Source: an uncultured Bacteroidales bacterium
GTDB lineage: Bacteria > Bacteroidota > Bacteroidia > Bacteroidales > Bacteroidaceae
Assembly (NCBI GenBank): GCA_902779875.1
Contig: CACZCX010000004.1
Coordinates: 23,984 to 87,983 of the forward strand
Reading direction: 5' to 3'
Length of the DNA: 64,000 bases
The translations under genes were made by a program, and so were the position numbers. Each line of letters begins with the position of its first letter. Within the stretch, counting starts at the first letter, position 1. The notes under the pieces are model-generated. The model ran no database searches. It was not told the DNA's origin and saw only the letters and a program-made list of their open reading frames with translations. Of this stretch, positions 17,671 to 63,636 are shown one piece after another.

Positions 17671-17834
17671 GGGAGCCAAAGGGGGCCAAAGGGGACGGTT
17701 CTATTTGGTACCCTTTTTTCATAACAGAAGCAGCGACGGTATTTGATCCGTCGCTGCTATCTTTTTGGTTATCAGTATACTGACCCGAAAAGGGTACCAA
17801 ATAGAACCGTCCCCTTTGGCTCCCTTTGGCTCCC
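17671..17834. repeat. Dispersed palindromic element, locus A (long inverted repeat)
   Basis: Two 47-nt halves (17671-17717 and 17788-17834) are inverted copies of each other with 46 of 47 positions identical. Each contains GGGGACGGTTC and arms built from GGAGCCAAA and TTTGGTACC. The halves enclose an independent terminator hairpin. The element starts 3 nt after the lrp stop and ends 3 nt before the convergent purM stop, so it fills the intergenic space almost exactly. Confidence 0.95.
17729..17766. terminator. Terminator hairpin between lrp and purM
   Basis: Perfect 11-bp stem AGCAGCGACGG / CCGTCGCTGCT with an 8-nt loop, followed on the plus strand by ATCTTTTT. It serves lrp and may also act on purM from the other side. 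Confidence 0.8.
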
Positions 17835-17837
17835 GGA

Positions 17838-19001
17838 TCAATATTCGAATGTGCCGTACTCGCTGTTGATGGTCAGGTGGGTGTGGTCCGATGCCTCCAC
17901 GCGGCCAATGACCTGAGCGTCGATTCCGAATGACTTGCTGATTTCGATTACCTGCTGAGCGTATTCCTTGGGCAGATATACCTCAAAGCGGTGACCGCAG
18001 TTGAATACCTTGTACATCTCCTTCCATTCGGTCTTGCTCTGCTCCTGGATGGTGCGGAACAGGGGAGGAACGGGGAACAGGTTGTCCTTGATCACGTGTA
18101 CGCCGTCAACAAAGTGCAGTATCTTGGTCTGTGCACCGCCTGAGCAGTGAACCATACCGTGTATCTGGGGACGCAGCGCATCGAGCAGTTTCTTAACCAC
18201 CGGGGCATAGGTGCGGGTGGGTGAGAGAACCAGCTTGCCTGCATCGAGAGGTGAATCCTGTACCTTGTCGGTCAGGCTCAGGCCTCCTGAGTAAACCAGG
18301 TCCTCGGGTACTGCGTGGTCATATGTCTCGGGATATTTATTGGCAATCTCCTTATTGAATACGTCATGACGGGCGCTGGTAAGGCCGTTGCTGCCCATAC
18401 CGCCGTTGTACTCCTTCTCATAGGTGGCCTTGCCGAACGATGCCAGACCCACTATCACATCGCCGGGACGAATGTTGGCGTTGTCAATCACGTCGCTGCG
18501 TTTCATGCGGCAGGTAACGGTGCTGTCCACGATGATGGTACGTACCAGATCGCCTACATCGGCAGTCTCACCGCCAGTGGCGTATGCTCCCACGCCCATC
18601 TCGCGGAGCTCTGCAAGAAGTTCATCGGTACCGTTTATGATGGCACTGATTACGCTACCCGGTACCAGATTCTTGTTACGGCCGATGGTAGAGCTTACAA
18701 GGATGTTATCGACTGCACCTACGCAGAGCAGGTCATCGATATTCATTATAAGGGCATCCTGTGCAATGCCTTTCCATACTGACAGGTCACCGGTCTCCTT
18801 CCAGTAGGCGTAAGCCAGTGAAGACTTGGTGCCTGCACCGTCGGCGTGCATTATGTTGCAGTACTCGGGGTCACCTCCCAGAATGTCAGGGATGATCTTG
18901 CAGAAAGCCTTGGGATAAAGGCCCTTGTCAATGTTCTTGATGGCGTTGTGTACATCCTCCTTGGATGCCGATACGCCGCGAAGCATATATCTTTCGTTCA
19001 T
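17838..19001 (-). CDS. purM: Phosphoribosylformylglycinamidine cyclo-ligase (PurM/AIR synthase family)
   Basis: A 387-residue PurM-family ATP-dependent enzyme making aminoimidazole ribonucleotide in purine synthesis. Visible motifs are HADGAGTKSSLAY (about 55-67), MNIDDLLCVGA (about 88), GGETADVGD (about 143) and the C-terminal GHRFEVYLP. It is about 40 residues longer than E. coli PurM, as is usual for the Bacteroidota form. It is the last gene of a minus-strand group phoH-purC-aroE-purM, 15 nt after aroE. Its terminal codon is 3 nt from repeat locus A. Confidence 0.9.
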   Translation of the reverse strand: MNERYMLRGVSASKEDVHNAIKNIDKGLYPKAFCKIIPDILGGDPEYCNIMHADGAGTKSSLAYAYWKETGDLSVWKGIAQDALIMNIDDLLCVGAVDNILVSSTIGRNKNLVPGSVISAIINGTDELLAELREMGVGAYATGGETADVGDLVRTIIVDSTVTCRMKRSDVIDNANIRPGDVIVGLASFGKATYEKEYNGGMGSNGLTSARHDVFNKEIANKYPETYDHAVPEDLVYSGGLSLTDKVQDSPLDAGKLVLSPTRTYAPVVKKLLDALRPQIHGMVHCSGGAQTKILHFVDGVHVIKDNLFPVPPLFRTIQEQSKTEWKEMYKVFNCGHRFEVYLPKEYAQQVIEISKSFGIDAQVIGRVEASDHTHLTINSEYGTFEY

Positions 19002-19016
19002 AGTCAGAATTATACT

Positions 19017-20081
19017 TTACTCGTTCCAGATGTTCCAGGCAGCTACAGCCTGCTGTTCAAGCATATCCTTGCCACCCTTGGCCTGGGCTCCGTGCTCGCG
19101 TCCCTTCTTCATGAAGAGGGTCTCGTCGGGGTTGGCTATCACATCCAGCAGCAGATGCTTGTCAGTGACGAATCCGTAGGGGATATCGGGAGCCTGGTCC
19201 ACATTGGGCCACATACCCAGAGGAGTGCAGTTCACGATCACGTCATAATCATCCATCACTGACGGTGAGAGCTCATAGTAGCCCATGATATCAAATGTGG
19301 AGTTGCGTGATACGAACCTGGTCTCCAGTCCCAGCTGCTCCAAAGCGTACTTGACGGCCTGTGAGACGCCGCCCGTGCCCAGGATGAGAGCCTTTCTGTG
19401 ACCCTCAAGCAGTTCCTTGAAAGAGACTGTGAAACCAATCCAGTCGGTGTTGTAACCTACCAGTTCGGTCTTGCCGTCCACGTGCAGCACCTTAACCGTA
19501 TTTACGGCTCCGATGGCCTGGGCGGTCTCGTCAAGACGTGTCAGGTAGGGGATAATATCCTGTTTATAAGGTATTGTTACGTTGAATCCGCAAAGTTTGG
19601 GGTTTGAAGTGATACTGTCAAGCTGCTCTATGCTCTCAAGCTCATAGTTCTCATAGTAGGCACTCATGCCGTTCTCACTGAAGAACTTGTTGAATCGGGC
19701 CTTGGAGGCAGAATGTCCCAGAGGCTTTCCTATCAGACCGAACAGGCGGTCGTACTTGAGGTCATCGGCCGATACGGTATAGGTGCTTTTTGCGGGCTCC
19801 GGCTCTATGACAGTCTCGGGTTCCTCAGGTTCCGGCTCAAAGGTCTGTTCTGCCTCAACCGGCTCTTCAGCCTCCTGAGTCGGCTCAGACTGCCATGACC
19901 ACTGGGGCTTGGTAGGCTCAGACGGTTCAATGGGCGGAAAGCCGTCATCCTCTTTCTGCGTAGTACGGTCCGTGGTGCTGTCACCGAACGGACTGTCACC
20001 GGGGTTGTTCAGCTTCTTGTTTACAGCCTGAACAAGCAGGAAAAAGAAAACGCCTAAAAACAGGACAAAACCGAAACCCAT
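19017..20081 (-). CDS. aroE: Shikimate dehydrogenase with an N-terminal membrane anchor
   Basis: A 354-residue protein. Residues 108-354 are a complete AroE: YDRLFGLIGKPLGHS (shikimate-binding Ser), NVTIPYK with the catalytic Lys, GYNTDW with the catalytic Asp, and LGTGGVSQAVKYAL for NADPH. Residues 1-107 are foreign to normal AroE (about 245-290 aa): a hydrophobic helix at 2-19 (FGFVLFLGVFFFLLVQA) followed by about 88 residues of Pro/Glu/Thr-rich linker. No Met occurs between residue 1 and the catalytic domain, so a downstream ATG start cannot remove the anchor. Role: NADPH-dependent reduction of 3-dehydroshikimate, here probably at the cytoplasmic face of the inner membrane. It lies 6 nt after purC. 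Confidence 0.9.
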   Translation of the reverse strand: MGFGFVLFLGVFFFLLVQAVNKKLNNPGDSPFGDSTTDRTTQKEDDGFPPIEPSEPTKPQWSWQSEPTQEAEEPVEAEQTFEPEPEEPETVIEPEPAKSTYTVSADDLKYDRLFGLIGKPLGHSASKARFNKFFSENGMSAYYENYELESIEQLDSITSNPKLCGFNVTIPYKQDIIPYLTRLDETAQAIGAVNTVKVLHVDGKTELVGYNTDWIGFTVSFKELLEGHRKALILGTGGVSQAVKYALEQLGLETRFVSRNSTFDIMGYYELSPSVMDDYDVIVNCTPLGMWPNVDQAPDIPYGFVTDKHLLLDVIANPDETLFMKKGREHGAQAKGGKDMLEQQAVAAWNIWNE

Positions 20082-20087
20082 AACTCC

Positions 20088-22008: not shown

Positions 22009-22026
22009 AAAATCAGTTATCGTGCC

Positions 22027-24731: not shown

Positions 24732-24805
24732 TGGAGGTACCTGGCGGACTCGAACCGCCGTACTCGGTTTTGCAGACCGATACCTAGCCGCTCGGTCAAG
24801 GTACC
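24732..24805 (-). tRNA. tRNA-Cys (GCA)
   Basis: Acceptor arms GGTACCT / AGGTACC pair fully. The anticodon loop CTGCAAA gives anticodon GCA, the T arm is GGCGG-TTCGAGT-CCGCC, the discriminator is U, and CCA is encoded (24734-24732). It has its own promoter (24822-24830) and terminator. Confidence 0.95.
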
Positions 24806-27397: not shown

Positions 27398-28132
27398 TTA
27401 AGCCAGTCTTTGCTTAACTATCTCATACATAAGGACTCCGGCGGCGACGGAGACGTTCAGGGACTCTATCTTGCCCAGGATAGGTATGCGTGCCCATTCG
27501 TCACACAGGGCCAGATGCTCCTGCGGTATACCTTTGTCCTCGGCTCCCATGATGAGGCATACGGGACCGGTGTAATCACCTTTGGTGTAGTCCTTGTCGC
27601 CCTTCTCTGTTGCGCCTACAATGCGGATTCCGCTGTTCTTGAGGAACCTTATGGTCTGAGATATCTGGTTCTCACGGCACACTGGCAGGGTGTGGAGTGC
27701 ACCGGCCGATGTCTTGATGGCATCGGCATTCACGCTTACGCTGTTACGTGACGGGATTATTATGGCGTCCACGCCCGCGCACTCGGCGGTACGGGCAATG
27801 GCTCCGAAGTTACGTACGTCGGTCACGCCGTCCAGCAGTACAAAGAAGGGGTCCTTGCCCTCCTCAAAGAGCATGGGTACCAGATCCTCCACGTGCTGGT
27901 ATGTAATCTGGGTGGTGAATGCAATCACACCCTGGTGGTTCTTGCGTGTTATGCGGTTAAGTTTCTCTACGGGAACGCGCTGAACAGGTATGTCCAGTCC
28001 CTTGATTGCTGCGAACAGTTCACGTGAAAGCTCGCTCTGCATATCTTTTTTAACGAGCAGTCGGTCAATCTCCTTACCGGCCTCTACGGCCTCAATCACG
28101 GCACGTATGCCGAATATCATTTCATCTTCCAT
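27398..28132 (-). CDS. rlmB: 23S rRNA 2'-O-ribose methyltransferase (RlmB/TrmH family)
   Basis: A 244-residue SPOUT methyltransferase. An N-terminal substrate-binding domain (IFGIRAVIEAVEAGKEIDRL) is followed by the SpoU knot with DGVTDVRNFGAIARTAECAG (about 102-121), LIMGAEDKGIP (about 195) and IPILGKIESLNVSVAAGVLMYE at the C-terminus (here cited only by IPILGKIESLN). It likely methylates a guanosine in 23S rRNA; the exact site is by homology only. It overlaps recN by 11 nt and is the last gene of the dnaN-to-rlmB operon. Confidence 0.9.
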   Translation of the reverse strand: MEDEMIFGIRAVIEAVEAGKEIDRLLVKKDMQSELSRELFAAIKGLDIPVQRVPVEKLNRITRKNHQGVIAFTTQITYQHVEDLVPMLFEEGKDPFFVLLDGVTDVRNFGAIARTAECAGVDAIIIPSRNSVSVNADAIKTSAGALHTLPVCRENQISQTIRFLKNSGIRIVGATEKGDKDYTKGDYTGPVCLIMGAEDKGIPQEHLALCDEWARIPILGKIESLNVSVAAGVLMYEIVKQRLA

Positions 28133-29792
28133 TGTTGTCTATGAGTGCTTTGGCGTTGTCGAGAGCAGCCTGGGTGAGGGTGGATCCGCTCATCATGCAG
28201 GCTATCTCGCGTATGCGGTCGTCACCCTCCAGCACGGCCATGCGCGTGTGGGTGGCGTCGGATTCATCGGTCTTGAATACTTTGTAATGGCGTTGTCCCA
28301 GGGCTGCGATCTGAGGCAGGTGGGTTATGGCCAGCACCTGACGGCCCTCGCGTGCCATCTGTTTCATGAGCAGGGCCATCTTCTCGGCCACGGCGCCCGA
28401 TACTCCGGTATCGATCTCATCAAATATGATGGTGGGCATGGAGCGTACGCCGGCCACAAGTGACTTGATGCAGAGCATGACGCGTGCAATCTCACCGCCC
28501 GATGCCACGGCAGCCAGTTCCTGCATGGGAACGGCCTTGTTGGCCGAGAACATGAACCGTACGTCGTCATGTCCGGTGCGGTCATATCCTTGTGAGGGCT
28601 GCAGGTCCACATTGAACTGAACGTTGGGTATGCCCAGCGGCTGCAGCAGCTCCTTTATATCCTTTATAATTACGTCCGATGCCTTGCGGCGGGTGGCGGT
28701 CAGCTCCTGAGCCCGGGCCTCCATCTCCTTGCGGGCGGCATCGGTCTGGCGGGTGAGCTGTTCTATGTCAAACTCGTAGGACCCTGTGCGGTCCAGACGG
28801 GTGCGTATGCTCTCTGCAAGCTCCAGGAGCTGTGTTATATTCTCTTTCTTGTGCTTTTTGAGCAGCGAGTAGATAAGGTCCAGACGCTCGTTCACCTGTT
28901 CCAGTCGGGCAGGGTCAAAGCTAACGTCCTCCTCTAGGTCCTGTACGGTATCGGCAATATCCTTGAGCTCTATGATGCAGCTGTCCAGACGGTCGGCCAG
29001 CTCGGTACACTGACTGAAGTTCTTCTGGGCTGAGCGGAGTGACTGCAGTGCGGAGCGAAGGCGCTGAACCGACCCTTCCTCATCGGCGGTCATGATTTCC
29101 GATGCGCGGAACAGGTCCTGCTTAATCTCCTCGGCATGGTTCAGCATATCGGACTCCTGCTCAAGTTCCTCCTGCTCGCCCTCCTTGAGTCGTGCGCTGT
29201 CCAGACCCTCGAGCTGGAATTCCAGATACTCGCGGTCGGTGTTATCGGACTCGAACTCGGCCTTGAGGCTGGCCAGACGGTTCCTGAGTTCCGTCCACTT
29301 GTCAAAACTCTGTATGTAGAGTTCTTTGGCCTGGCTGTTGGAGGCTATGGTATCCACGACATCAAGCTGGAAGGACTGTGTGCCCAGTGCCAGGTTCTGA
29401 TGCTGTGAGTGTATGTCTATGAGGCGGCACCCAAGGTCGCGCAGCTGTGTCAGTGTCACGGGGGTGTCGTTTATGAAGGCGCGGCTCTTGCCCTGTGAGG
29501 AGAGCTCACGGCGCATTATGGTGTCATCGGGATCAAAATCCAGGTCGTTGTCCAGGAAGAACTGCTCAAGTCCGTATCCGTTTATGGAGAACCGTCCCTC
29601 GATGGTGCATTTGTCGGCACCCTGACTCAGGGTCTTGGAGTCGGCGCGGCCGCCGAGCAACAGGTTCATGGCGCCCAGTATGATGGACTTACCGGCACCG
29701 GTCTCACCGGTCATGACCGAGAAGCCGTCGGAAAAGTCAATATCCAGACGGTCTATCAGAACGTAGTTGCGTATGTGTACCTCCTTAAGCAT
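28122..29792 (-). CDS. recN: DNA repair protein RecN
   Basis: A 556-residue SMC-like ATPase. Walker A is GETGAGKSIILGAM (about 31-44). Long coiled coils span about 160-360 around a central hinge, and the C-terminal half has SGGEIARVMLCIK, IFDEIDTGVSGAVAEKM and ITHLPQIAALG. It organises DNA ends in double-strand break repair. Its start codon shares bases with the stop of the upstream coaBC-DUF4835 gene, so translation is probably coupled. Confidence 0.96.
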   Translation of the reverse strand: MLKEVHIRNYVLIDRLDIDFSDGFSVMTGETGAGKSIILGAMNLLLGGRADSKTLSQGADKCTIEGRFSINGYGLEQFFLDNDLDFDPDDTIMRRELSSQGKSRAFINDTPVTLTQLRDLGCRLIDIHSQHQNLALGTQSFQLDVVDTIASNSQAKELYIQSFDKWTELRNRLASLKAEFESDNTDREYLEFQLEGLDSARLKEGEQEELEQESDMLNHAEEIKQDLFRASEIMTADEEGSVQRLRSALQSLRSAQKNFSQCTELADRLDSCIIELKDIADTVQDLEEDVSFDPARLEQVNERLDLIYSLLKKHKKENITQLLELAESIRTRLDRTGSYEFDIEQLTRQTDAARKEMEARAQELTATRRKASDVIIKDIKELLQPLGIPNVQFNVDLQPSQGYDRTGHDDVRFMFSANKAVPMQELAAVASGGEIARVMLCIKSLVAGVRSMPTIIFDEIDTGVSGAVAEKMALLMKQMAREGRQVLAITHLPQIAALGQRHYKVFKTDESDATHTRMAVLEGDDRIREIACMMSGSTLTQAALDNAKALIDNNGR

Positions 29793-31873
29793 CAGTCTGA
29801 GGTCTTAATGTTGTTCCATTCGTTGGAGAGCGAGGGGTTCACCTGGCTCAGAAGTTCCTTGACCTTCTGGCGTTCCGATGCAATCCCGTAGCTGTATATG
29901 CTCAAGAGCTCGTTTTTCTTGATCTCGGTAAAGAGAGTGGGGAGCGACGATGTGCTCTTGGCGTTCTTGGTCTCGCTGAGCAGGGCCAGGCTCTCAGTTA
30001 TGGTGGCGCGTCCGCGGTCGGCGTTGGCGGTCATGTCATCCAGGCCCAGACGGTGGTAGGAGTACTGGAGCTGGCGGAATGAGGCCAGGTTGCCGTTCAT
30101 GTAGTCGTTGATGAGTGAGTAGCGGTTGGCTTTGGTGTCGAAAGAACGCCATCCGCTGCCCAGTGACTGGGCGCTGGCGGCTATGTTCTCCACCTGACGC
30201 AGTATGTCGGTGCCGCCGTTGAGTGACATGGTGTCAAAATCAAGGCCGATGATAAGCAGGCTGTAGTAGGCCAGTATGGCCGTGAGGTTGTTGTCAGGGG
30301 TGAGTCCCTGCGAATACTCTATGCGGTCCTGCTCCGTGTAGTTGAACTCCACCTCGGTGTCACGGAAGTTGAAAACGGTGGTGTTGTAGGTGGAATTGTA
30401 TACGGGACGGCTGCTCTGCACTGTCAGCTCACAACTCATCTTGCCGCTCTGCGGGTCGTATGAGTTTACTACTAGGTTGAAGTTGCACTGTATGCGCTCC
30501 TTGTCCGAGAAGTGATAGCCGGTCCAGACCTGAGTGGAGAGGAACTGCTTGATGGCGTTCTCCAGTGACTGGAACACATCCTTGTCGGTGCCCTGTATCT
30601 TGGAGGTGTTGACCGAGAGGGTGGGGCTGAGCTCCTGAGCCTGTGCCTTGAGGGGCATAAAGAGGAACAGAAGACAGAACAGCAGGCCTGCGAGCTTGCT
30701 TATGATGGCCTTGGCCACATCCTTCTTGGACTGCAGCGGCAGCTCCCGGCTCTCCTTGCGGTCTATGAGCGTAACCTTGTTGGTGTCATAACCGAATCCG
30801 GCGCCCTCGTCACGCAGCGAGTTGAGCACGATGAAATCCAGGTTCTTGCGCTCCAGCTTGTCCTGGGCGTTGCTGAACTCATGGTCGGTTTCAAGCGCGA
30901 ATCCCACCATCTTCTGGTCGGGTCGCTTAATGGCACCCAGCGATGCGGCTATATCGGGATTGGGCTTGAGCCTGAGGGTGATCTCACCTTTGCGCTTGAT
31001 CTTGGTGTCCGATGTCTCCACGGGCGTGAAGTCGGCAACTGCGGCGCACAGGATGGCGGCATCGGATGTGGGGAAATGCTTCATGGCCTCCTCATACATC
31101 TGCTGTGCCGACTGTATGTCTATCCTTTCTATGTTGGGATTTACGGTCTTGATATTTACGGGACCGGCTATGAGAGTGACCCGGGCACCGCGTGCTGCGC
31201 ACTCCTCGGCCAGCGCGAATCCCATCTTGCCGGTTGACCAGTTGCCTATGAACCTTACAGGGTCGATAGGCTCATACGTGGGTCCCGCTGTTATCAGGAT
31301 TTTTTTTTTTGAAAGCTCCGACTGACTCCGGAAATAGTCCTCGAGTGCCGATACGATGACATCGGGCTCCTGCATGCGGCCCTTGCCTGTGAGCTGGCTG
31401 GCAAGCTCACCCTCGGCAGGCTCAATGAATATGTTGCCTATGGACTGAAGGGTCTCGATGTTGCGCTGTGTAACGGGGTGGCGGTACATGTCCAGGTCCA
31501 TGGCGGGGGCTACGAATACCGGAGCCTTCATGGAGAAGTATGTGGTGGCCAGCATGTTGTCGGCCACTCCGCTTGCCATCTTACCCAGTGTGGCGGCGGT
31601 GCAGGGTGCTATGAGCATGGCATCGGCCCACTGACCAAGGTCCACATGGCTGTTCCATGAACCGTCCCTGCGGTCAAAGAACTCGCTTACCACCGGCTTG
31701 CGGGTGAGTGTGGAGAGGGTGAGGGGGGTGATGAACTCCTTGGCTGCAGGTGTCATTACCACCTGAACCTCGGCTCCCTTCTTTATGAGCAGACGTACCA
31801 GATAGGCGGCCTTGTAGGCTGCTATGCTTCCGGTCACGCCCAGAACTATATGTTTTCCGCTGAGTATATCCAT
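29792..31873 (-). CDS. coaBC: Fusion of CoaBC (pantothenate to 4'-phosphopantetheine) with a DUF4835 envelope protein
   Basis: A 693-residue single frame. Residues 1-390 are complete CoaBC: the flavoprotein decarboxylase half (GSIAAYKAAYLVRLL, NSHVDLGQWADAMLIAPCT, PAMDLDMYRHP) and the phosphopantothenoylcysteine synthetase half (ITAGPTYEPIDPVRFIGNWS, TGKMGFALAEECA). Directly after the CoaBC end (SKKDVAKAII) comes a signal-peptide-like helix (about 392-410, LAGLLFCLLFLFMPLKAQAQ) and then a DUF4835 domain (412-693). In related genomes these are, to my knowledge, two adjacent genes; here no stop separates them. A GTG at DVAK could allow internal initiation of the DUF4835 part. If the fusion is real, CoaBC is tethered inside the cell and DUF4835 lies in the periplasm. 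Confidence 0.88.
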   Translation of the reverse strand: MDILSGKHIVLGVTGSIAAYKAAYLVRLLIKKGAEVQVVMTPAAKEFITPLTLSTLTRKPVVSEFFDRRDGSWNSHVDLGQWADAMLIAPCTAATLGKMASGVADNMLATTYFSMKAPVFVAPAMDLDMYRHPVTQRNIETLQSIGNIFIEPAEGELASQLTGKGRMQEPDVIVSALEDYFRSQSELSKKKILITAGPTYEPIDPVRFIGNWSTGKMGFALAEECAARGARVTLIAGPVNIKTVNPNIERIDIQSAQQMYEEAMKHFPTSDAAILCAAVADFTPVETSDTKIKRKGEITLRLKPNPDIAASLGAIKRPDQKMVGFALETDHEFSNAQDKLERKNLDFIVLNSLRDEGAGFGYDTNKVTLIDRKESRELPLQSKKDVAKAIISKLAGLLFCLLFLFMPLKAQAQELSPTLSVNTSKIQGTDKDVFQSLENAIKQFLSTQVWTGYHFSDKERIQCNFNLVVNSYDPQSGKMSCELTVQSSRPVYNSTYNTTVFNFRDTEVEFNYTEQDRIEYSQGLTPDNNLTAILAYYSLLIIGLDFDTMSLNGGTDILRQVENIAASAQSLGSGWRSFDTKANRYSLINDYMNGNLASFRQLQYSYHRLGLDDMTANADRGRATITESLALLSETKNAKSTSSLPTLFTEIKKNELLSIYSYGIASERQKVKELLSQVNPSLSNEWNNIKTSD

Positions 31874-34541: not shown

Positions 34542-34664
34542 AAGGGCGCAAAAGGGACGGTTCTATCTGTGCCCTTATGACACGTCAAGAACCGTCCCTA
34601 ATTTATATGCTAAAAGCAGCTTAGCTCAAAAGGGCACAGATAGAACCGTCCCTTTTGTGCCCTT
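34542..34664. repeat. Dispersed palindromic element, locus B
   Basis: Two 35-nt inverted halves (34542-34576 and 34630-34664; 34 of 35 identical) have arms AAGGGCACA / TGTGCCCTT around GGGACGGTTC. A third core, AAGAACCGTCCC, lies between them at 34587-34598. The element begins 2 nt after the rho stop codon. There is no T-run, so it is not a classical terminator. Confidence 0.93.
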
Positions 34665-34666
34665 GG

Positions 34667-41585: not shown

Positions 41586-41659
41586 GGTGCGTTAGTTCAG
41601 CTGGTTAGAATGCCGCCCTGTCACGGCGGAGGTCATGGGTTCGAGTCCCATACGCACCG
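41586..41659 (+). tRNA. tRNA-Asp (GTC)
   Basis: 74 nt without encoded CCA. Acceptor arms GGTGCGT / ACGCACC, D arm AGTTCAGCTGGTTAGA, anticodon loop CTGTCAC giving GTC, T arm ATGGG-TTCGAGT-CCCAT, discriminator G. Confidence 0.96.
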
Positions 41660-41767: not shown

Positions 41768-41804
41768 TCCGCTCTCACCCTCCGGGTTCGCCCCGTTACG
41801 ATTG

Positions 41805-41835
41805 TGACGGAAAGGGGTCAGACCCCAATCCGTCA
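41805..41835. repeat. Dispersed palindromic element, locus C1 (GGGGTCAGACCCC type)
   Basis: A 31-nt palindrome, TGACGGA-A-AGGGGTCAGACCCC-A-A-TCCGTCA. Its TGA (minus strand, 41835-41833) is the stop codon of the propeller lipoprotein gene. Confidence 0.93.
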
Positions 41836-43008
41836 CTCCAGGTCTTTGAAGCGGAACTGAAGGAGGATGGGGTTGTCGTCGTTCTGGGCTTGGACGGCAT
41901 CCAGGATCTGCTGACCGAGTTCGGACAACGGGACGGAACTGTCTTTCTCAACACTCTGGAGTTGATAGACATAGGATGTTCCGTTTATTCCAGCCAGGGT
42001 GGTGGTGTATTTCAGTCCGGGAATCGTAAGCTTTGAATAGTTGGCGCTTTTGCGTCCGTTTGTCAGATAATAGTGCGTGTAACTCTTGGCGTAATCGTCA
42101 TGATGGCGTTCGTAACAGAAACTTAACAGGTCGCCGTTCTTGACGGGAACGCCGTAAGTGATGGCTAATCCTTCTTTCATGTATTGTTCCCATTCTTCGT
42201 CTAAAATCAAAATGGAATATGGCCCCCGATTTGTATAGGACCTGGGAAATCCCTTGTCTCCGAATGTGAAACTGAATTCCAGTTTCAGGCTGTCTTCATC
42301 GGTCAGGCTGTATATATTGTTTTCATAACCGAACGTAGCCACGAGAGGGTTCTGCGGATTCGTGAACTGGTTGGTGAAAGTCGGCCCAATCCGGTTTCCT
42401 CCCATATTCTCATATTTTTTTATAATTATGGCAGTGTCCGGCAGTATGCTGACGAGCTGAAGGTCCGTTCCGTATTTCCAGTCTGCATTCAGACATCGGC
42501 CGTCACCCAGTTGAACCAGATTGCGTATGCTCGCCATGAACCAGTTATGGCCTGTGCCAAGTAATTCCAGTCCGGGTAGCTGAAAGGTAAATATCTGGAA
42601 ATCCTGGTAATATTTCTCGGGGTCCCGGCTGTAAAGAAGGAGTTGTTTCCTGTCCGGCTGGTATAAGAAATTGAGCAGTGAAATATACTCGTTATGACCA
42701 CGGCCGTATCGGTCTATAGTGCCCAAAAGATTGCCGTCGTTATCAAATACGCTTATGTCCTTGAAAGCATAATCAATGTCCGGGGCGATTGAAAAGAAAT
42801 AATCGTCATAGAAGTAGAATAATATGGCATTGGGTATCGGCTTGTCCGACTTCAGGGGGATGATCCTGATATCGCAGGCAACGTCTTCCAATACGGCCTC
42901 CACGGCGTCATCGGGGTCGATGAGGACGACTTCGTTGTTGCTCCGGTTGCATGACGTGGCTGCCAGCAGCACCGCCATTGAGCAGAAAAGATAATTCAAG
43001 CGTTTCAT
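41833..43008 (-). CDS. Six-bladed beta-propeller lipoprotein
   Basis: A 391-residue protein from ATG 43008 (MKRLNYLFCSMAVLLAATSC, lipobox Cys 20); the longer frame to 43044 starts inside a repeat and lacks a signal peptide. The mature part shows propeller blades (DISVFDNDGNLLGTIDRYGRGHNEY, quoted by its core VFDNDGNLLGTI) and resembles the lipoprotein at 36843-38021. Function unknown. It lies downstream of the ECF sigma factor and its membrane partner, and is flanked exactly by two GGGGTCnGACCCC palindromes; its stop codon is part of one. Confidence 0.8.
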   Translation of the reverse strand: MKRLNYLFCSMAVLLAATSCNRSNNEVVLIDPDDAVEAVLEDVACDIRIIPLKSDKPIPNAILFYFYDDYFFSIAPDIDYAFKDISVFDNDGNLLGTIDRYGRGHNEYISLLNFLYQPDRKQLLLYSRDPEKYYQDFQIFTFQLPGLELLGTGHNWFMASIRNLVQLGDGRCLNADWKYGTDLQLVSILPDTAIIIKKYENMGGNRIGPTFTNQFTNPQNPLVATFGYENNIYSLTDEDSLKLEFSFTFGDKGFPRSYTNRGPYSILILDEEWEQYMKEGLAITYGVPVKNGDLLSFCYERHHDDYAKSYTHYYLTNGRKSANYSKLTIPGLKYTTTLAGINGTSYVYQLQSVEKDSSVPLSELGQQILDAVQAQNDDNPILLQFRFKDLE

Positions 43009-43020: not shown

Positions 43021-43051
43021 CGACGGAAAGGGGTCTGACCCCAATCCGTCA
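43021..43051. repeat. Dispersed palindromic element, locus C2
   Basis: Same 31-nt palindrome as 41805-41835 with two base changes (GGGGTCTGACCCC centre; CGACGG end). Its TGA (43051-43049) is the stop codon of the membrane protein gene upstream. Confidence 0.93.
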
Positions 43052-44005
43052 CTCTTTCTTTTTCAGGAAGTTTGTAAGGAGCATTATCGGTACAATTATT
43101 ATGAACAGACCGCTCTTGTCAAAGACGCCGGTCCTGATATAATCAATGACGAACGTTGCAAGGTACAGGATTATACTTACTGAGAACAGTACAATCGTAA
43201 AGGTGCTTGGTCTGTTTCCCTTGTTCTTTCCGGTGGTTTCAAATAACATGGTTATCAGGGAGACTGTAAATCCTAATACGATGGGAGCGTACAGGTAGTT
43301 TACCCATGCATAGTCCTTGAAACCAATCTCCTGATATGTCTTGAAGAATGCGATGATGTAGAGCACTGAAAAGGCTACCATTGCCAGTATCATGATGCCC
43401 AGTACTGTAAATCCAATAATCTTTCCTATGCGGCCCAACAGTGAGGGCTGTTCCTCAATCCTTCCCTGAAGTCCATCCTTGTAGGCTTTGATAAAGCTGT
43501 GGTAGTATCGGGGGATAGTCATGAGCACAAGGATTACCATCAGGATGATGCCGAATGAGGTGGTCATGAACAGGAACGCAAATGCAATCCAGAACACCTC
43601 CGTTAAAGCCAGCATTATGAGGAAAGCCTTCCTGTACCTCTTTTCTCTGGCTATAAGCGTGTTCAGGTCCAGTGCCACCAGGTCCTTGCGTCTTACCCTG
43701 CGCAGTATGAATGCGCTTATCCCTGCGTTCACCAGGCAGTATGTGCCGGATATTATCAATGCGGTTGTTGAGAGTCCGAATGTGAAATAGAACAGCAGGA
43801 TCAGAAGCGGGAAGGATATTATGTAGCCCCAAATGAAGATTGTCTTGAGCTCCGTCTCGAGATATTCCACTTTCTGCTCGGTTGCGGCACGGATCTGATC
43901 GGGAGTGATTATCTCCTGACTCTCCAGCTTCTCGTTCATTATCTGATAGCTCTCCTTGAGTTCCTCAAGTTCGCTCAGGTTTATCATTTCTTCTTTCATA
44001 GTCAT
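43049..44005 (-). CDS. Membrane protein encoded next to an ECF sigma factor
   Basis: A 318-residue protein. Residues 1-60 are cytoplasmic and helical (LSELEELKESYQIMNEKLES), and the rest contains about eight hydrophobic helices in pairs (near 63-100, 128-165, 190-220, 232-255, 268-310). Met1 or Met3 (43999) could start it. I do not recognise the family; it begins 6 nt after the ECF sigma stop codon, so it may be a membrane-bound partner or anti-sigma factor. No zinc anti-sigma motif (HxxxCxxC) is seen. Confidence 0.75.
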   Translation of the reverse strand: MTMKEEMINLSELEELKESYQIMNEKLESQEIITPDQIRAATEQKVEYLETELKTIFIWGYIISFPLLILLFYFTFGLSTTALIISGTYCLVNAGISAFILRRVRRKDLVALDLNTLIAREKRYRKAFLIMLALTEVFWIAFAFLFMTTSFGIILMVILVLMTIPRYYHSFIKAYKDGLQGRIEEQPSLLGRIGKIIGFTVLGIMILAMVAFSVLYIIAFFKTYQEIGFKDYAWVNYLYAPIVLGFTVSLITMLFETTGKNKGNRPSTFTIVLFSVSIILYLATFVIDYIRTGVFDKSGLFIIIVPIMLLTNFLKKKE

Positions 44006-44572: not shown

Positions 44573-44659
44573 AAAACTGCAACATTAGGGACGGTTCCTA
44601 ATGTTGCAGTTTTCCCGGAAAACTAACACATTAGGAACCGTCCCTAATGTGTTAGTTTT
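44573..44659. repeat. Dispersed palindromic element, locus D (complete two-hairpin form)
   Basis: Hairpin 1: AAAACTGCAACATTAG, loop GGACGGTTC, CTAATGTTGCAGTTTT (44573-44613). Spacer CCCGG. Hairpin 2: AAAACTAACACATTAG, loop GAACCGTCC, CTAATGTGTTAGTTTT (44619-44659). Both stems are perfect at 16 bp, and the loops are reverse complements of each other. The lipocalin-like gene's TAA (44654-44652) lies in the last arm. T-tails in both directions could end transcription. Confidence 0.97.
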
Positions 44660-45614: not shown

Positions 45615-45692
45615 AAAACTGCAACATTAGGGACGGTTCCTAATGTTGCAGTTTTGCGGGAAAACTAACACATTAGGAACCGTCCCTAATGT
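45615..45692. repeat. Dispersed palindromic element, locus E (second hairpin truncated)
   Basis: Hairpin 1 (45615-45655) is identical to that of locus D. Spacer GCGGG. Hairpin 2 has AAAACTAACACATTAG and loop GAACCGTCC, but its right arm ends after CTAATGT (45686-45692), exactly at the stop codon (45695-45693) of the macroglobulin-like gene. Confidence 0.95.
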
Positions 45693-48943: not shown

Positions 48944-49030
48944 AAAACTGCAACATTAGGAACCGTCCCCAATGTTGCAGTTTTGCGGGAAAACTAACAC
49001 ATTAGGAACCGTCCCTAATGTTGCAGTTAG
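48944..49030. repeat. Dispersed palindromic element, locus F (chimeric second hairpin)
   Basis: Hairpin 1: AAAACTGCAACATTAG, GAACCGTCC, CCAATGTTGCAGTTTT (one mismatch). Spacer GCGGG. Unit 2 has left arm AAAACTAACACATTAG but right arm CTAATGTTGCAGTTAG, i.e. arms of two different subfamilies. The stop codon TAA of the 49027-49617 gene is 49029-49027, inside the last arm. Confidence 0.95.
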
Positions 49031-50623: not shown

Positions 50624-50705
50624 TGCAACATTAGGAACCGTCCCCAATGTTGCAGTTTTCCCGGAAAACTAACACATTAGGAACCGTCCCTGATGTGTTA
50701 GTTTT
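50624..50705. repeat. Dispersed palindromic element, locus G
   Basis: Unit 1 is truncated at its left end (TGCAACATTAG, GAACCGTCC, CCAATGTTGCAGTTTT). Spacer CCCGG. Unit 2 is AAAACTAACACATTAG, GAACCGTCC, CTGATGTGTTAGTTTT. The TAA stop of the EamA-family transporter gene is 50700-50698, inside the right arm, exactly as in locus D. Confidence 0.95.
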
Positions 50706-51612
50706 TGAAGTTTACTAGGGCGACTCCTCCAAATACGAACAGAGAGGCGATTAGTTTCAGGGGGGTAAGATGATCGATTTGCATGAGGAGAGCTATGACC
50801 ATGGCAATGACGGGCTGGACGTAGGTGTACATGCAGACGATCACCGGCTTGAGGCGCTTCTGGCCTATGGGAATCAGAAAATAGGCCACGAATGTGGCGG
50901 CAACCACCACGTAAACCGTCTGCCACATTACGTCGGCGGGAACGGCGGCCAGGTTTGAATCACCGAATGCGCTGAAACAGAAGGGCAGGGCCATGACTGA
51001 GGAGAACAGGAACATCCACTTCATGAAGGTCACCACCGAATACTTTTGAATGACCGGCTTGAAAATACCCACGTACGATGCAAAGCACACCGTATTTATA
51101 ATCATGCCCAGTATACCCCAGACCGATGTGGAATCGGCCCCCGAGCGAATGGACACGCAGTTGAAAATCAGGATGAACACTCCCACCAGGCTGAGCGCTA
51201 TGCCTGCAATGCCGCCCCAGGTAATCCTCTCCTTTATAACTATGGCCGATATGACCAGCGTCATGATGGGGCTCAGTGTGCTCATTATGGAGGCATCGAT
51301 CGCGGTGGTCTGGGTTATGGCAAAGAGGAACGAGAGCTGGGTGATGAACAGTCCCAGGAATGATGCCAGGACGATTTTCCAGACATCGGCCCTGTCAATC
51401 TTCTCATGCGGGGCGGAGAACAAGGACCAGATCCAGAAGAGCAGCATGGCTCCGAACGACCTCAGGCAGAACAGTGCCATGGGGGTGATGTTGCCGTCAA
51501 GCGCGATGTTCTTGCAGCATATGATATTGAACCCGAAAATGGCGTATGCTCCAAAGCATGCCAGGTTGCCGATAATGGTATTTTTACTCTCGTTCATCAG
51601 GGTTTGATTCAT
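50698..51612 (-). CDS. DMT-superfamily (EamA) transporter
   Basis: A 304-residue protein with ten hydrophobic helices in two EamA halves; PIMTLVISAIVIKERITWGGIAG (core VISAIVIKERITWGG) near 120-140 and the matching KPVIVCMYTYVQPVIAMVIAL (core VCMYTYVQPVIAMV) near 255 are typical. It likely exports a metabolite or amino acid; substrate unknown. The gene's last two sense codons before TAA match the repeat arm (AAAAAC), as in the lipocalin-like gene. Confidence 0.9.
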   Translation of the reverse strand: MNQTLMNESKNTIIGNLACFGAYAIFGFNIICCKNIALDGNITPMALFCLRSFGAMLLFWIWSLFSAPHEKIDRADVWKIVLASFLGLFITQLSFLFAITQTTAIDASIMSTLSPIMTLVISAIVIKERITWGGIAGIALSLVGVFILIFNCVSIRSGADSTSVWGILGMIINTVCFASYVGIFKPVIQKYSVVTFMKWMFLFSSVMALPFCFSAFGDSNLAAVPADVMWQTVYVVVAATFVAYFLIPIGQKRLKPVIVCMYTYVQPVIAMVIALLMQIDHLTPLKLIASLFVFGGVALVNFKN

Positions 51613-52145: not shown

Positions 52146-52153
52146 TAGCTTTG
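52146..52153 (+). promoter_or_regulatory. Promoter -7 element of the riboswitch-transporter transcript
   Basis: TAGCTTTG; transcription would begin just before the cobalamin aptamer. Confidence 0.65.
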
Positions 52154-52162
52154 TCCCCAGAA

Positions 52163-52348
52163 TCAAGGTATCTGTTAGCTCAGATTTAAAAGGGAACACG
52201 GGTGTGATTCCCGGACAGTCCCGCTGCTGTATTTCTCAGCGTATGATTCCGGATGAGCAGGCAATCCCATGCTCTGCAACACAAGCCACTGGTTCTGCAG
52301 GACCGGGAAGGTTTCGGGATATGAGATGAGTCAGAAGACCTGCCTTGA
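52163..52348 (+). promoter_or_regulatory. Cobalamin (B12) riboswitch
   Basis: P1 forms from TCAAGG (52163-52168) and CCTTGA (52343-52348). Inside are the conserved cobalamin-aptamer words in order: AAAAGGGAACACGGGTG (52188-52204), ATTCCCGGACAGTCCCGCTG (52207-52226), GCCACTGG (52285-52292), CCGGGAAGG (52303-52311) and the B12 box GATGAGTCAGAAGACCTGCC (52326-52345). It is on the same strand as, and immediately upstream of, the DASS transporter gene. Confidence 0.93.
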
Positions 52349-52538
52349 ATTCATGGTAGTATCCGAACCCCGTGGATAGGGTAGGTAGTACAAATTGTCA
52401 ACTACATTGTAAGAAGACAGTTCCGGACCAAGTGGGGTGCAGCTCCCTTGGGGAACCGTATGCAGGTTACTGTGTGCGGATTGTACGTTGCGTCCCTAAC
52501 CACGCAAAAACATTAACAAGCAAAACAGATAATAAACC
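52349..52538 (+). promoter_or_regulatory. Long leader between the riboswitch and the transporter ORF
   Basis: 190 nt without an ORF. GTTCC (52420-52424) pairs with GGAAC (52452-52456) around a CCAAGTGGG / CTCCCTTGG stem. Closer to the gene, TTGCGT (52488-52493) pairs with ACGCAA (52502-52507). No T-run follows either hairpin, so control of translation or Rho access is more likely than intrinsic termination. Confidence 0.5.
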
Positions 52539-56989: not shown

Positions 56990-57011
56990 GCTGCTGTCGG
57001 ACTTACACACA

Positions 57012-57122
57012 GGGGACGGTTCCTAATGTTATAGTTTTGCAGAAAAATCAAAAAAGCAGGCCGAATTTTCGGCCTGCTTTTATGTTAATGCAGTAAAAAC
57101 TATAACATTAGGAACCGTCCCC
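57012..57122. repeat. Dispersed palindromic element, locus H
   Basis: Two 27-nt inverted halves are identical: GGGGACGGTTCC followed by TAATGTTATAGTTTT at 57012-57038, and the complement at 57096-57122. The arm word is TATAAC instead of TGCAAC. As in locus A, the halves enclose an independent terminator. Confidence 0.95.
57052..57081. terminator. Terminator between eda and dnaX
   Basis: AAAAGCAGGCCGAA / TTCGGCCTGCTTTT, a perfect 14-bp stem with a 2-nt loop and T-tails on both strands; it serves the convergent genes. Confidence 0.9.
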
Positions 57123-57170
57123 GATGTAAAAAAGGAAACTGAGTGCGTATCAAAATCGAAATTTGTACTG

Positions 57171-59415: not shown

Positions 59416-59418
59416 GAG

Positions 59419-59961: not shown

Positions 59962-59969
59962 TAATTTTG
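59962..59969 (+). promoter_or_regulatory. Promoter -7 element of the DUF4369 gene
   Basis: TAATTTTG, 26 nt before the ATG at 59996. Confidence 0.6.
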
Positions 59970-59995
59970 CACATCAATAAATTAGTATAAAGGAC

Positions 59996-60688: not shown

Positions 60689-61428
60689 CCCTTGTCCAGG
60701 GTCCCCTGAATTATTTCACTTACTTTCTGTGCAGTGTCATTCATGACAGCTGTCTGCTCCTGTTCCGTCAGTCCGGTATTGGGCTGTGCAGGTATGGGTG
60801 CATGTATGGTCATGTGTACCGGATGCCAGGTCACATGCCATGCATGGCGTGACATGACATCATAGTTGCCGTCAATTGTCACAGGCAGGATAGGGAGCCC
60901 CAGCTCCTGTGATATGAGGAAAGCGCCGCGCTTGAACCGGCCCATCTTGCCGTCAGGTGTACGCGTGCCCTCTGGGAATATCACCACTGACATGCCGTTC
61001 TTGAGTTTGGACTCCGCCTTACGTATGCTCTCCATGGACTTGACCCTGGAGCTGCGTTCTATCAGGATATGACCTGCCATATAGCATGCCCAGCCTACGA
61101 AAGGTATCTTGCCCAGCTCCTTTTTCATGACCCACTTGAACGGTATGCCCACAAAGCCGTACATGAGGAATGCGTCCCAGTAGCTCTGGTGGTTGGCGGC
61201 TATCACGTATGACTGGCCTTTCACGATATTCTCACGTCCGTCAATACGGATAGGTATGAGGAATATGGCGTAAAAGAGACGGCCCCAAATCATGCCGGGC
61301 CAGTAACCCCAGAAACGGTCGTTGAAAACGGAACCTATCATGGTGGTCAGCGCCACCAGGATGGTCACTGCAATCATTACAGGCAGTGCAAAACAGATCT
61401 GATATATTAGGTAGAGTATCTTAATCAT
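60682..61428 (-). CDS. plsC: 1-acyl-sn-glycerol-3-phosphate acyltransferase
   Basis: A 248-residue membrane acyltransferase. N-terminal helices (about 5-30 and 45-58), the HX4D catalytic motif NHQSYWDA (about 80), FPEGTRTPDGKMGRFKRGAF for glycerol phosphate binding (about 150), and the ILPVTIDG block. It makes phosphatidic acid. Its start overlaps pyrC by 4 nt (ATGA), so it is translationally coupled. Confidence 0.93.
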   Translation of the reverse strand: MIKILYLIYQICFALPVMIAVTILVALTTMIGSVFNDRFWGYWPGMIWGRLFYAIFLIPIRIDGRENIVKGQSYVIAANHQSYWDAFLMYGFVGIPFKWVMKKELGKIPFVGWACYMAGHILIERSSRVKSMESIRKAESKLKNGMSVVIFPEGTRTPDGKMGRFKRGAFLISQELGLPILPVTIDGNYDVMSRHAWHVTWHPVHMTIHAPIPAQPNTGLTEQEQTAVMNDTAQKVSEIIQGTLDKGY

Positions 61429-62759
61429 CTTTCAAAAGCAATTTTCTGTCCTTTAATCTCCGTGTCAAAATGGCCCTCGTCATAAACCATGTGGCCGTTC
61501 ACCCAGGTCTTGCGTACTTTCCAGCGGAACTGCTCACCCTCGAACGGGCTCCAGCGTGCCTTGGTGTGGTTGTTCTCGGCATCGGCAGTCCAACCCTCGT
61601 CGGAACGTGACACCAGCGTGAGGTCAGCCTTGTAACCGGTACGTATGAATCCGCGCTCCTTAACCTTAAAGAGCAGGGCGGGGTTATGGCACATGAGACG
61701 TACCACATCGGTAATCTTAAGGATACCCTGCTCGGTCAGTTCAAGCATGACAGGCAGGGAGTAGGGCAGTACGGGCATACCCGATGCAGCCGTGCGGCAA
61801 CCTCCCTGTTTTTCAAGGAACAGGTGCGGGGCATGATCGGTGCCGACCACGTCTATGCGTCCGCCTGTGAGTTCACGGCGCAGGGCGTCGCGGTCAGCCT
61901 GTGTCTTGACGGCGGGGTTGCATTTTATGAGCGTACCTTTGGTGCGGTAATCCTGGTCGGTGAACCACAGATGTGCGGGGCAGGCCTCGGCGGTGAACTG
62001 CTTGCCCTCAACCGGACCGGCCTTGAACAGCTCCAGCTCACGGGCTGTGGTGAGATGCAGAACATGCAGATGCACGTTTGTGCCGGCAGCCACGTCAAGA
62101 GCCTTGGAGGTCGATGCGTAACAGGCCTCCTCGCTGCGTATGAGCGGATGATACTCCACAGGGGGCTCACAGCCGCACTCGGCGGTGTAACGCTCCATGT
62201 TGGCGTTTATGATTGAACTCTCCTCACAGTGCGCCGCAACGGGTACGGGACTGGACTTGAACAGAGCCTTGAGCGAGTCGCGGTCATCGAGCAGCATGCC
62301 GCCCGTGCTTGAGCCCATGAAAAGCTTCACGCCGCACACATGACCGGGGTCCAGATTCTCAATCACATCCAGGTTGTCACGTGTGGCGCCCAGGTAGAAG
62401 GAGTGGTTCACCAGGCAGCACTCCGCAGCGCGGAAGAATTTCTCATCGAGAGCCTGCATGGTCACGGTCTGCGGTATGCAGTTGGGCATATCGAACACCG
62501 ATGTCACACCGCCTGCTGCGGCTGCACGGCTCTCTGATCCCATATCGGCCTTATGTGTAAGACCGGGATCGCGGAAATGGACGTGGTCGTCAATGGCGCC
62601 CGGAAGCAGCCACATGCCACGTGCGTCAATCTCAGTATCGGCTTGCGGACACTCTCCGGTGTAAATACCTTCTATGATATCATTAGCAATAAGGACCGAT
62701 GCCTGCTGCGTCTGTCCTTCATTGACCACCATGGCGTCCTTTATGAGAATCTTGCTCAT
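61425..62759 (-). CDS. pyrC: Dihydroorotase
   Basis: A 444-residue class I dihydroorotase/amidohydrolase. Metal site DDHVHFRDPG (about 56-65), GVKLFMGSSTGG (about 142-153) holding the bridging Lys, HCEES, HVLHLTTARE, and the C-terminal GTDHAPH (about 308). It closes the dihydroorotate ring in pyrimidine synthesis. Middle gene of the operon glycosyltransferase-pyrC-plsC. Confidence 0.93.
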   Translation of the reverse strand: MSKILIKDAMVVNEGQTQQASVLIANDIIEGIYTGECPQADTEIDARGMWLLPGAIDDHVHFRDPGLTHKADMGSESRAAAAGGVTSVFDMPNCIPQTVTMQALDEKFFRAAECCLVNHSFYLGATRDNLDVIENLDPGHVCGVKLFMGSSTGGMLLDDRDSLKALFKSSPVPVAAHCEESSIINANMERYTAECGCEPPVEYHPLIRSEEACYASTSKALDVAAGTNVHLHVLHLTTARELELFKAGPVEGKQFTAEACPAHLWFTDQDYRTKGTLIKCNPAVKTQADRDALRRELTGGRIDVVGTDHAPHLFLEKQGGCRTAASGMPVLPYSLPVMLELTEQGILKITDVVRLMCHNPALLFKVKERGFIRTGYKADLTLVSRSDEGWTADAENNHTKARWSPFEGEQFRWKVRKTWVNGHMVYDEGHFDTEIKGQKIAFER

Positions 62760-62764
62760 AGTGC

Positions 62765-63514
62765 TCAGGATTGTTTCTGTGGATATTTCCTGAACCAGCT
62801 TGAGACTTTGAGGCGGATCACTCCGAAGAATGCCTCACTGAATATGCCGCCGCTCATCTTTGATGTTCCAAGCTCGCGGTTCACGAATATTACGGGCACC
62901 TCCTTGATCTTGAACCCGCACTTGTAGGCGGTGAACTTCATCTCAATCTGGAAGGCGTATCCCTTAAAGTGTATCTTGTCAAGTTCAATGGTCTCAAGCA
63001 CTTCGCGGCGGTAGCACTTGAATCCGGCTGTGGTGTCATGAATGGGCAGGCCGGTCACAAAATGTACGTAACGTGATGCGAAATAAGACATGAGCACGCG
63101 TCCCATGGGCCAGTTGACCACATTCACGCCGCTCACGTAACGTGAGCCTATGGCTACGTCATAACCGTCATTGCGGCAGGCGTTGAGCAGGCGGGGCAGG
63201 TCAGCGGGAGCGTGTGAGAAATCGGCATCCATCTCGAATATGTAGTCATATCCGCGCTCTATGCACCATTTGAAACCAGTGATGTAAGCGGTTCCCAGAC
63301 CGAGCTTGCCGGAACGCTCCACAATGAACAGGCGGTCCTTGAACTCACTCTCAATCAGTCCCTTCACGATGGCTGCGGTGCCGTCGGGAGAGCCGTCATC
63401 AATAATAAGTATGTTAAAATTATCCTCCAGCGCCATGACTGCGCGGATGATATTCTCTATGTTTTCCTTCTCGTTATAGGTGGGGATAATTACTATGCTC
63501 TGGTTAGTTTTCAT
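62765..63514 (-). CDS. Polyprenol-phosphate mannosyltransferase-like GT2 enzyme
   Basis: A 249-residue protein from ATG 63514 (MKTNQSIVIIPTYNEKENIE); the frame extends to 63700 but that part runs through repeat I. GT-A motifs: IIDDGSPDGTAAIV, ERSGKLGLGTAYITGFKW, EMDADFSHAPADLP and the acceptor motif RYVSGVNVVNWP with HDTTAGFKCYRREVLE. No C-terminal membrane domain, as in soluble DPM1-type enzymes. It likely charges a polyprenyl phosphate with mannose or another hexose for periplasmic glycosylation. It lies 5 nt upstream of pyrC. Confidence 0.92.
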   Translation of the reverse strand: MKTNQSIVIIPTYNEKENIENIIRAVMALEDNFNILIIDDGSPDGTAAIVKGLIESEFKDRLFIVERSGKLGLGTAYITGFKWCIERGYDYIFEMDADFSHAPADLPRLLNACRNDGYDVAIGSRYVSGVNVVNWPMGRVLMSYFASRYVHFVTGLPIHDTTAGFKCYRREVLETIELDKIHFKGYAFQIEMKFTAYKCGFKIKEVPVIFVNRELGTSKMSGGIFSEAFFGVIRLKVSSWFRKYPQKQS

Positions 63515-63535
63515 AGTTTGTTCTAATATAACGCA

Positions 63536-63543
63536 CAAATATA
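63536..63543 (-). promoter_or_regulatory. Promoter -7 element of the glycosyltransferase-pyrC-plsC operon
   Basis: TATATTTG on the minus strand, 21 nt before the ATG. Repeat I begins 15 nt upstream, where the -33 box would lie. Confidence 0.65.
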
Positions 63544-63558
63544 ATAAAAAGGAGCCAA

Positions 63559-63636
63559 AAGGAGCCAAAGGGGACGGTTCTATTTGGCACCCTTTTTGAA
63601 AAAGGTGCCAAATAGAACCGTCCCCTTTGGCTCCTT
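63559..63636. repeat. Dispersed palindromic element, locus I (long snap-back hairpin)
   Basis: Two inverted halves, 63559-63596 and 63599-63636, are nearly adjacent and would fold into a stem of about 37 bp with one extra C. Arms GGAGCCAAA / TTTGGCACC surround GGGGACGGTTC. A second GGAGCCAAA precedes the left half, as in locus A. It is the only locus that sits between two divergent promoters and not after a stop codon. Confidence 0.95.

Follow-up and report, generated by a model that had tools for sequence, protein, structure and literature searches.

What are the short intergenic palindromes that recur with a common core, GGACGGTTC, along 64,000 nucleotides of an uncultured Bacteroidales bacterium (assembly GCA_902779875.1, contig CACZCX010000004.1, positions 23,984 to 87,983; this whole stretch is the window below), and what spreads them? 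They are very probably small mobile hairpins spread by transposases of a kind that is encoded elsewhere in the same genome. More specifically, we consider it highly likely that they are non-autonomous mobile palindromes which resemble repetitive extragenic palindromes (REPs) and belong to long, helix-turn-helix (HTH)-tailed REP-associated tyrosine transposases (RAYTs) of the kind called TIRYT, RAYT group 1 or TnpAREP subclass 2.1. This reading builds on observations of arm covariation, of palindromes at RAYT borders, of a link between copy number and RAYT, of presence and absence at orthologous sites, of placement at gene ends and of terminator-like sequence, together with a predicted HUH fold.

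Core, arms and RAYT genes

On both strands of the window, GGACGGTTC has 19 matches, where 0.39 are expected and 0 of 100 shuffles reach 19. The recurrence of this core at eight loci named in a preliminary description of the DNA (17671, 34542, 44573, 45615, 48944, 50624, 57012 and 63559) is real, and 17 of the 19 matches fall there; the remaining two, at 29589 and 31659, lie within the open reading frames (ORFs) 28122-29792 and 29792-31873 and are armless by eye. Each named locus holds two units, except 34542 with three. A unit consists of an arm, a 13-nt core (GGGG[A/T]C[G/A]G...) and a complementary arm, and most units are arranged as doublets. Two further loci described with a different centre are present as well, with arms GACGGAAA and AATCCGTC; the exact pattern of this GACGGAAA family occurs, among 37 genomes, in the own genome only (10 matches, a number in which some palindromes count twice, once per strand).

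The window is part of a metagenome-assembled genome (MAG) of 2.14 Mb in 74 contigs, 86.5% complete, in which the motif GGGACGGTTCN{0,1}TA has 173 sites (89+84) against 2 for the reversed control, so the repeats are not confined to a few copies. Forty-eight loci of this genome were examined, eight from the window and 40 drawn from among the matches listed, and most sort into three families with the arms GGAGCCAAA (P1), GGGCACA (P2) and TGCAAC, AACACA or TATAAC (P3). The last three arms had been taken for separate subfamilies; they are arm variants of one family and are mixed inside single units (a/a 14, a/b 6, b/a 2 and b/b 3 of 46 P3 units, the other 21 carrying other or degenerate arms). Among the loci examined, P1 and P2 pairs without exception have outer units that face each other (+/-), and P3 pairs occur in all orientations (++, --, +-, -+) with a core spacing of mostly 46 bp.

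The statement that no RAYT-type enzyme is present holds for the window and fails for the genome: a PF01797 (Y1_Tnp) profile search revealed two genes on contigs outside the window (E = 6.5e-11 and 9.8e-11), whose proteins both exceed the cut-off of this profile and match NCBIfam REP_Tyr_transpos below its cut-off (53 vs 80 bits). The RAYT gene at L070 (contig C11) has GACGCAAA-GGGGTCG palindromes on its borders. TGCAAC palindromes border and overlap the second gene, at L071 (contig C19), one of them encoding its last residues, and L071 is thus a RAYT flanked by the same palindromes as the window contains, for which a search had been proposed. A bordering palindrome was seen to supply the last residues of RAYTs at L071:3578-4438 and L053:2700-3554. 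The C-terminal part of the L070 protein resembles HTH_23 (E = 7.6e-5, below cut-off), and HUH (NHVHLL) and YIHQNP sequences are visible in the RAYT alignment. A structure model of the relative L072 (pLDDT 92.7, pTM 0.73) has its best PDB match in 4er8, the structure of a RAYT in complex with a REP hairpin (E = 1.6e-8), followed by the IS608 and ISDra2 transposases; the predicted RAYT fold is HUH. In the genus, 39 RAYT genes were found in 22 genomes, with 1-3 per genome and a within-genome identity of at most 63% (sample of 40 regions, two of the fetched regions being without a match to the RAYT query and one further PF01797 match, in G017, lying outside the sample).

RAYT loci were taken from the genus and from the scan of one species-genome collection (best 80 of 562 confirmed candidates), whose loci belong by record title to rumen or gut Bacteroidales, Prevotella, many Bacillota, one Atribacteria and one Coriobacteriaceae. 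These 119 loci include 109 unique ones, of which 103 are flanked by 150 bp or more of sequence on each side. With no motif assumed, and with inverted and direct copies pooled, the two flanks share a word of at least 13 nt at 76 of the 103 loci and in 11 of 243 control windows; 66 of the 76 shared words contain GGG[A/T]C on one strand (8 of 243 in the controls). A palindrome scan that required GGG[A/T]C and 6 of 8 pairs found palindromes on both flanks of 56 out of 113 RAYT loci, on one flank of 36 and on neither of 21; the corresponding numbers for 148 controls were 2, 22 and 124.

Arm covariation was determined on loci where the left arm together with the core recurs in similar form on the two flanks, complementarity being left unused for selection; 76 of the 119 loci (duplicates included) qualified, and the distinct arms among them number 55. 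Of 8 positions compared between left and right arm, 5.36 are complementary, against 2.64 for shuffled partners (maximum 3.35 in 5000 shuffles), and the arm pair adjoining the core pairs at chance level (0.38 vs 0.38). Core positions 2-6 (GGG[A/T]C) are fixed by the scan itself; position 1 is G in 46 of 55, position 8 is G in 54 of 55, and position 7 has 37 G and 17 A. Judged from these sequences, RAYT lineages differ in their arms and have the core in common across phyla. The preliminary description had complementary arms swapped around a kept core, which is borne out between RAYT lineages and not within the families of the own genome. Since the arms covary across lineages and not within families, they change between element lineages rather than freely, in matched pairs, between copies. 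The arm diversity, previously called unusual, is present and largely explained by RAYT lineages with different arms.

Two candidate clues were rejected. Mantel distance tests on 73 RAYTs (from 92 with a palindrome, near-duplicates dropped) do not indicate which domain reads arms or core, HUH and C-terminal parts being indistinguishable. A head-to-tail duplication of the left arm was considered as an insertion footprint; it occurs in 5 of 22 P1 units (window 17671, 17804 and 63559; L247, L251) and in 0 of 21 P2 and 0 of 39 P3 units. A duplicate resembling this repeat adjoins the RAYT of L117.

Copy number and orthologous gene ends

Across the 37 genomes, the copy number of a palindrome type tends to follow its cognate RAYT. 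The TGCAAC type has 44 matches in the own genome, which alone was found to contain a TGCAAC-type RAYT, 2 in G015 and 0 in the other 35. Copies of the GGCACAAA type number 99, 92 and 28 in the genomes with a cognate RAYT (G021, G013 and G005), 33 to 1 in nine others and 0 in 25 (Mann-Whitney P = 0.0005), and the GACGCAAA type, present in 21 genomes, has 12, 57, 31 and 64 copies in the cognate-RAYT genomes G000, G012, G017 and G002 (P = 0.002). A GAGCCAAA-like type reaches 60 copies in the own genome, where no cognate RAYT was found, and 49 in G008, which has the cognate RAYT L033; seven genomes contain 18 to 1 and 28 contain 0. Copies without a RAYT may have outlived the enzyme, or the gene may lie in the missing part of an incomplete genome.

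The gene end at 57012 was compared in 30 loci, one per genome, with both neighbours adjacent in 19 and a single gene in 11. Six of the 19 stop-to-stop junctions are empty (12-29 nt; G002, G010, G036, G009, G029, G026), nine carry a GGG[A/T]C palindrome (G000, G025, G011, G006, G017, G020, G013, G012, G008) and four contain other inserts (G005, G019, G021, G007). The nine palindromes represent nine combinations of arm and core, two of which share arms, and in five of them (G000, G011, G012, G013, G020) the arms match, by eye, those adjoining a RAYT of the same genome. In three of the genomes with other inserts, G005, G019 and G021 (L272, L275, L276), the junction holds AATTGAGAATT-type inverted repeats around a terminator-like hairpin, coreless in that GGG[A/T]C is missing.

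At the gene end 17838, 7 of 29 genomes have a palindrome of one of five classes, and among the remaining 22 a simple terminator-like hairpin is visible by eye in at least 12. The gene pair of 17671 is separated in G011 by a doublet that differs in its arms and in its inner hairpin. In most relatives the genes neighbouring 17671-17834 are non-adjacent or differently oriented, and homology stops at the element edges, as if rearrangements had broken there. At 50624 the orthologues lie 20 bp apart in G008 and G022, compared with 254 bp in the window, where the gene 50698-51612 ends inside the element tail. Both presence and family identity thus vary among relatives, contrary to what the same sequence at the same places in all of them would have looked like, and which family is found at a given gene end depends on the lineage.

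Spread of the repeats by homologous recombination or gene conversion, with the RAYT border as a by-product, would account for the mixed arms of P3 units and for the gene order around 17671, which varies between genomes with homology ending at element edges. We nevertheless regard it as improbable: conversion alone cannot create copies where relatives are empty, as at 57012, and provides no tie between copy number and cognate RAYT.

Placement at gene ends and terminator-like sequence

Where an element edge faces the 3' end of a gene, it lies at most 15 nt from the stop codon in 34 of 43 cases (median 3), a count with heuristic edges and uncurated ORFs that leaves out 12 further sides where the frame ran on. 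The neighbouring genes at the 48 loci are convergent in 12, tandem in 26, divergent in 5 and unresolved in 5 cases. Under a hairpin-plus-T rule, in which the hairpin is expected from the construction of the elements and the T-tracts are not, the 47 elements divide into 32 that are terminator-like on both strands, 14 on one and 1 on neither, compared with 6, 45 and 42 of 93 background segments. An extra terminator-like hairpin is enclosed, by eye, by the doublets 17671, 57012, L233, L238, L249 and L262. With this layout of A-tract, hairpin and T-tract the elements could act as putative bidirectional terminators. Known REPs likewise lie just behind stop codons and also supply stop codons, as described in PMC3733652, and PMC12306157 links E. 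coli REPs at distances of up to 15 nt from a stop codon to translation control; by analogy, translation control is another possible effect of the elements studied here.

Could these simply be ordinary intrinsic terminators that evolved in place and became alike by convergence on a hairpin with a T-tract? The elements adjoin stop codons and are terminator-like on both strands, and many genomes free of them show, by eye, a simple terminator-like hairpin at the corresponding gene end. Termination requires neither a fixed GGGG[A/T]C[G/A]G core nor arms shared by dozens of copies, it has no need of matching palindromes beside RAYT genes, and family-specific bursts disfavour convergence, which leaves this explanation a slim chance. 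Miniature inverted-repeat transposable elements (MITEs) of a DDE transposase, also short, with inverted repeats and in many copies, are very unlikely since the shared flanking repeats are found at Y1 transposase genes.

The features of the window are collected in Table 1. The 17671 element adjoins both neighbouring stop codons, and sequence related to its inner hairpin is found, by eye, in L233 and L262; the three-unit layout of 34542 is repeated in L236 and L253. The 44573 doublet is predicted to fold into two hairpins (z = -12.7) and the 63549 doublet into one long hairpin (-44.8 kcal/mol, z = -14.5).

Table 1. Repeat elements and associated hairpins in the window (strand n/a throughout).
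Feature	Position	Remarks
P1 doublet	17671..17834	arms GGAGCCAAA / TTTGGTACC; units face each other, converging genes on either side
Intrinsic-terminator-like hairpin	17729..17758	inside P1 doublet of 17671
P2 locus	34542..34665	arms GGGCACA / TGTGCCC; third core-bearing unit at 34589
Palindrome GACGGAAA-GGGGTCAGACCCC-AATCCGTC	41804..41836	GGGGTC[A/T]GACCCC centre
Palindrome GACGGAAA-GGGGTCTGACCCC-AATCCGTC	43021..43052	GGGGTC[A/T]GACCCC centre
P3 doublet	44573..44655	TGCAAC unit and AACACA unit; 46-bp core spacing
P3 doublet	45615..45690	terminator-like
P3 doublet	48944..49022	cores in direct orientation; terminator-like
P3 doublet	50624..50702	at stop codon of gene 50698-51612
P3 doublet, TATAAC arms	57006..57128	between converging genes; encloses terminator-like hairpin 57052-57081
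P1 doublet	63549..63636	left arm tandemly repeated

Elsewhere in the window, Rfam models identify a cobalamin riboswitch (52149-52362) and tRNA genes (41586-41659 and 24735-24805). In the own genome outside these loci, L230 (C4:3800-4750) contains a cargo of about 290 nt between two P2 units, for which Rfam returned only a chance-level match (E = 0.47). Related sequence (L198, L208, L213, L212) stands behind a P2-like unit in two genomes, G021 and G022, and is unaccompanied by units in G007 and G033, both by eye.

A number of observations weigh against the reading of the repeats as palindromes mobilised by RAYTs. Transposition, cleavage and binding, and likewise termination, are what we infer. 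The own genome, an 86.5% complete MAG, yielded no cognate RAYT for the P1, P2 and GACGGAAA families, and the L071 protein has no HTH match in Pfam. G008, in which no cognate RAYT was found, has 33 GGCACAAA copies, more than the 28 of the cognate genome G005; no matching RAYT was found in 17 of the 21 GACGCAAA-carrying genomes, among them G026 with 61 copies; and four of the nine elements at 57012 have arms that were not seen beside any RAYT of the genome that carries them. The flanks of 27 of 103 RAYT loci have no word in common. Within families, arm complementarity is no better than for shuffled partners (P1, P = 0.13; P3, P = 0.12), the compared P2 arms being invariant and the test thus uninformative for P2. 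The distance correlation between arms and RAYT is weak, 0.24 for the HUH and the C-terminal part alike (permutation P = 0.0005; partial 0.12 each), and that between core and RAYT is slight, 0.07 and -0.01 (partial with HUH 0.10, P = 0.016). Single P1 and P2 units alone fold weakly (z = -2.3 and -2.5). At 50624 the filled and empty alleles differ not by the doublet alone but by about 150 bp more, and of the 11 stretches retrieved 9 contained one gene of the pair only, and the sites compared gave no clean target-site junctions.

Mechanism, known relatives and meaning

The published RAYT model (PMC8266576) describes an HUH tyrosine that cleaves single-stranded REP hairpins in which unpaired or loop bases are contacted. 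On this pattern, the arms would provide the hairpin and its identity, the core a common contact, and doublets would move as units. In single-stranded DNA the arms would fold into a hairpin that exposes the core, a RAYT would bind the core plus its own arms, and its tyrosine would cut near the foot of the hairpin. The doublet would then be moved, at times together with a terminator or other cargo enclosed by its units, to a new site, mainly right behind a stop codon, where its layout could give bidirectional termination.

The closest known relatives are TIRtrons, which Di Nocera et al. (2013; PMC3733652) described as RAYT-like genes between GGGGWSAS inverted repeats. Shared with TIRtrons and their TIRYT proteins are a Y1 gene of RAYT-like kind that lies between inverted repeats, a GGGG[A/T]-type motif in these repeats, and repeats of which some are self-complementary and occur as genomic dimers or clusters. 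The genes studied here likewise combine a Y1/HUH domain (PF01797; 4er8 fold match for L072) with a C-terminal extension (HTH_23 below cut-off in L070) and are flanked by repeats common to both sides (76 of 103 loci). Differences lie in the motif, whose position 7 is here more often G (37 of 55) than A (17), and in arm covariation, the copy-number link and family turnover at orthologous gene ends, which do not appear in the portions of the TIRtron description cited here. A 2018 survey (PMC6006769) equates TIRtron genes with its subclass 2.1, RAYT group 1, and notes their HTH tail; an HUH domain with a C-terminal HTH-like extension, low copy number and wide occurrence are further likenesses. The portion of the survey cited reports no REP-like sequences near the group 1 genes, whereas palindromes border most of those examined here. 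Length, HTH-like tail and published descriptions suggest the assignment to RAYT group 1 (TnpAREP subclass 2.1).

As to the likeness to REP/BIME elements and RAYTs proposed earlier, the kind was right, RAYT genes being bordered by palindromes, but these are not classical REPs: no GTAG foot is seen by eye, and the RAYT is long with an HTH-like tail, a type for which TIRs are the repeats described. Inverted doublets, many copies just behind stop codons, element ends that supply stop codons and a mostly single-copy RAYT are shared with the GTAG REPs, BIMEs and REPINs of RAYT groups 2 and 3, as described in PMC8266576 and PMC3733652. The inverted doublet typical of REPINs is found in P1 and P2, two of the three families. 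Identity, however, appears to be borne by the arms here, with the 13-nt core shared, and by eye none of the listed units has an unpaired GTAG at the hairpin foot (typical feet are AAGGAGCC, AGGGGCAC and AAAACTGC). That the repeats are CGTC-tagged REPs, the opposite strand of the core containing CGTC (inside GAACCGTCC) and CGTC repeats being reported from Bacteroidetes (PMC3733652), is hardly credible, since CGTC lies here within the core and not in an unpaired end tag, and since these palindromes border transposase genes, which CGTC repeats reportedly do not. IS200/IS605 elements share the Y1/HUH fold (2a6o and 2xm3 are among the structure matches) but differ in that several near-identical transposase copies per genome are not seen here; there is one RAYT gene per type and genome, and the many copies are gene-less palindromes. 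Literature searches gave nothing on bacterial repeats by title for GGACGGTTC, among the matches listed, and nothing relevant by title for longer core words.

The elements thus fit the TIRtron/RAYT group 1 kind and go beyond it: the core consensus is broader, the arms covary, copy number is linked to the cognate RAYT, and families turn over at gene ends. We tentatively propose, as an idea that may well fail, a lock-and-key system across phyla, in which the conserved core would mark the substrates of HTH-tailed RAYTs and the fast-changing, covarying arms would name the owner RAYT; such orthogonal pairs would compete for gene ends and successively occupy them, so that mobile DNA would supply and replace the terminators of a lineage. 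For RAYT group 1, the portion of the survey cited reports a lack of REP-like partners and leaves open what the HTH tail does (PMC6006769). Dozens of natural pairs of RAYT and arms around one core make a recognition code directly testable, and the orthologous-site series, in which one gene end carries mobile palindromes of different families, would tie the evolution of terminators to a selfish element.

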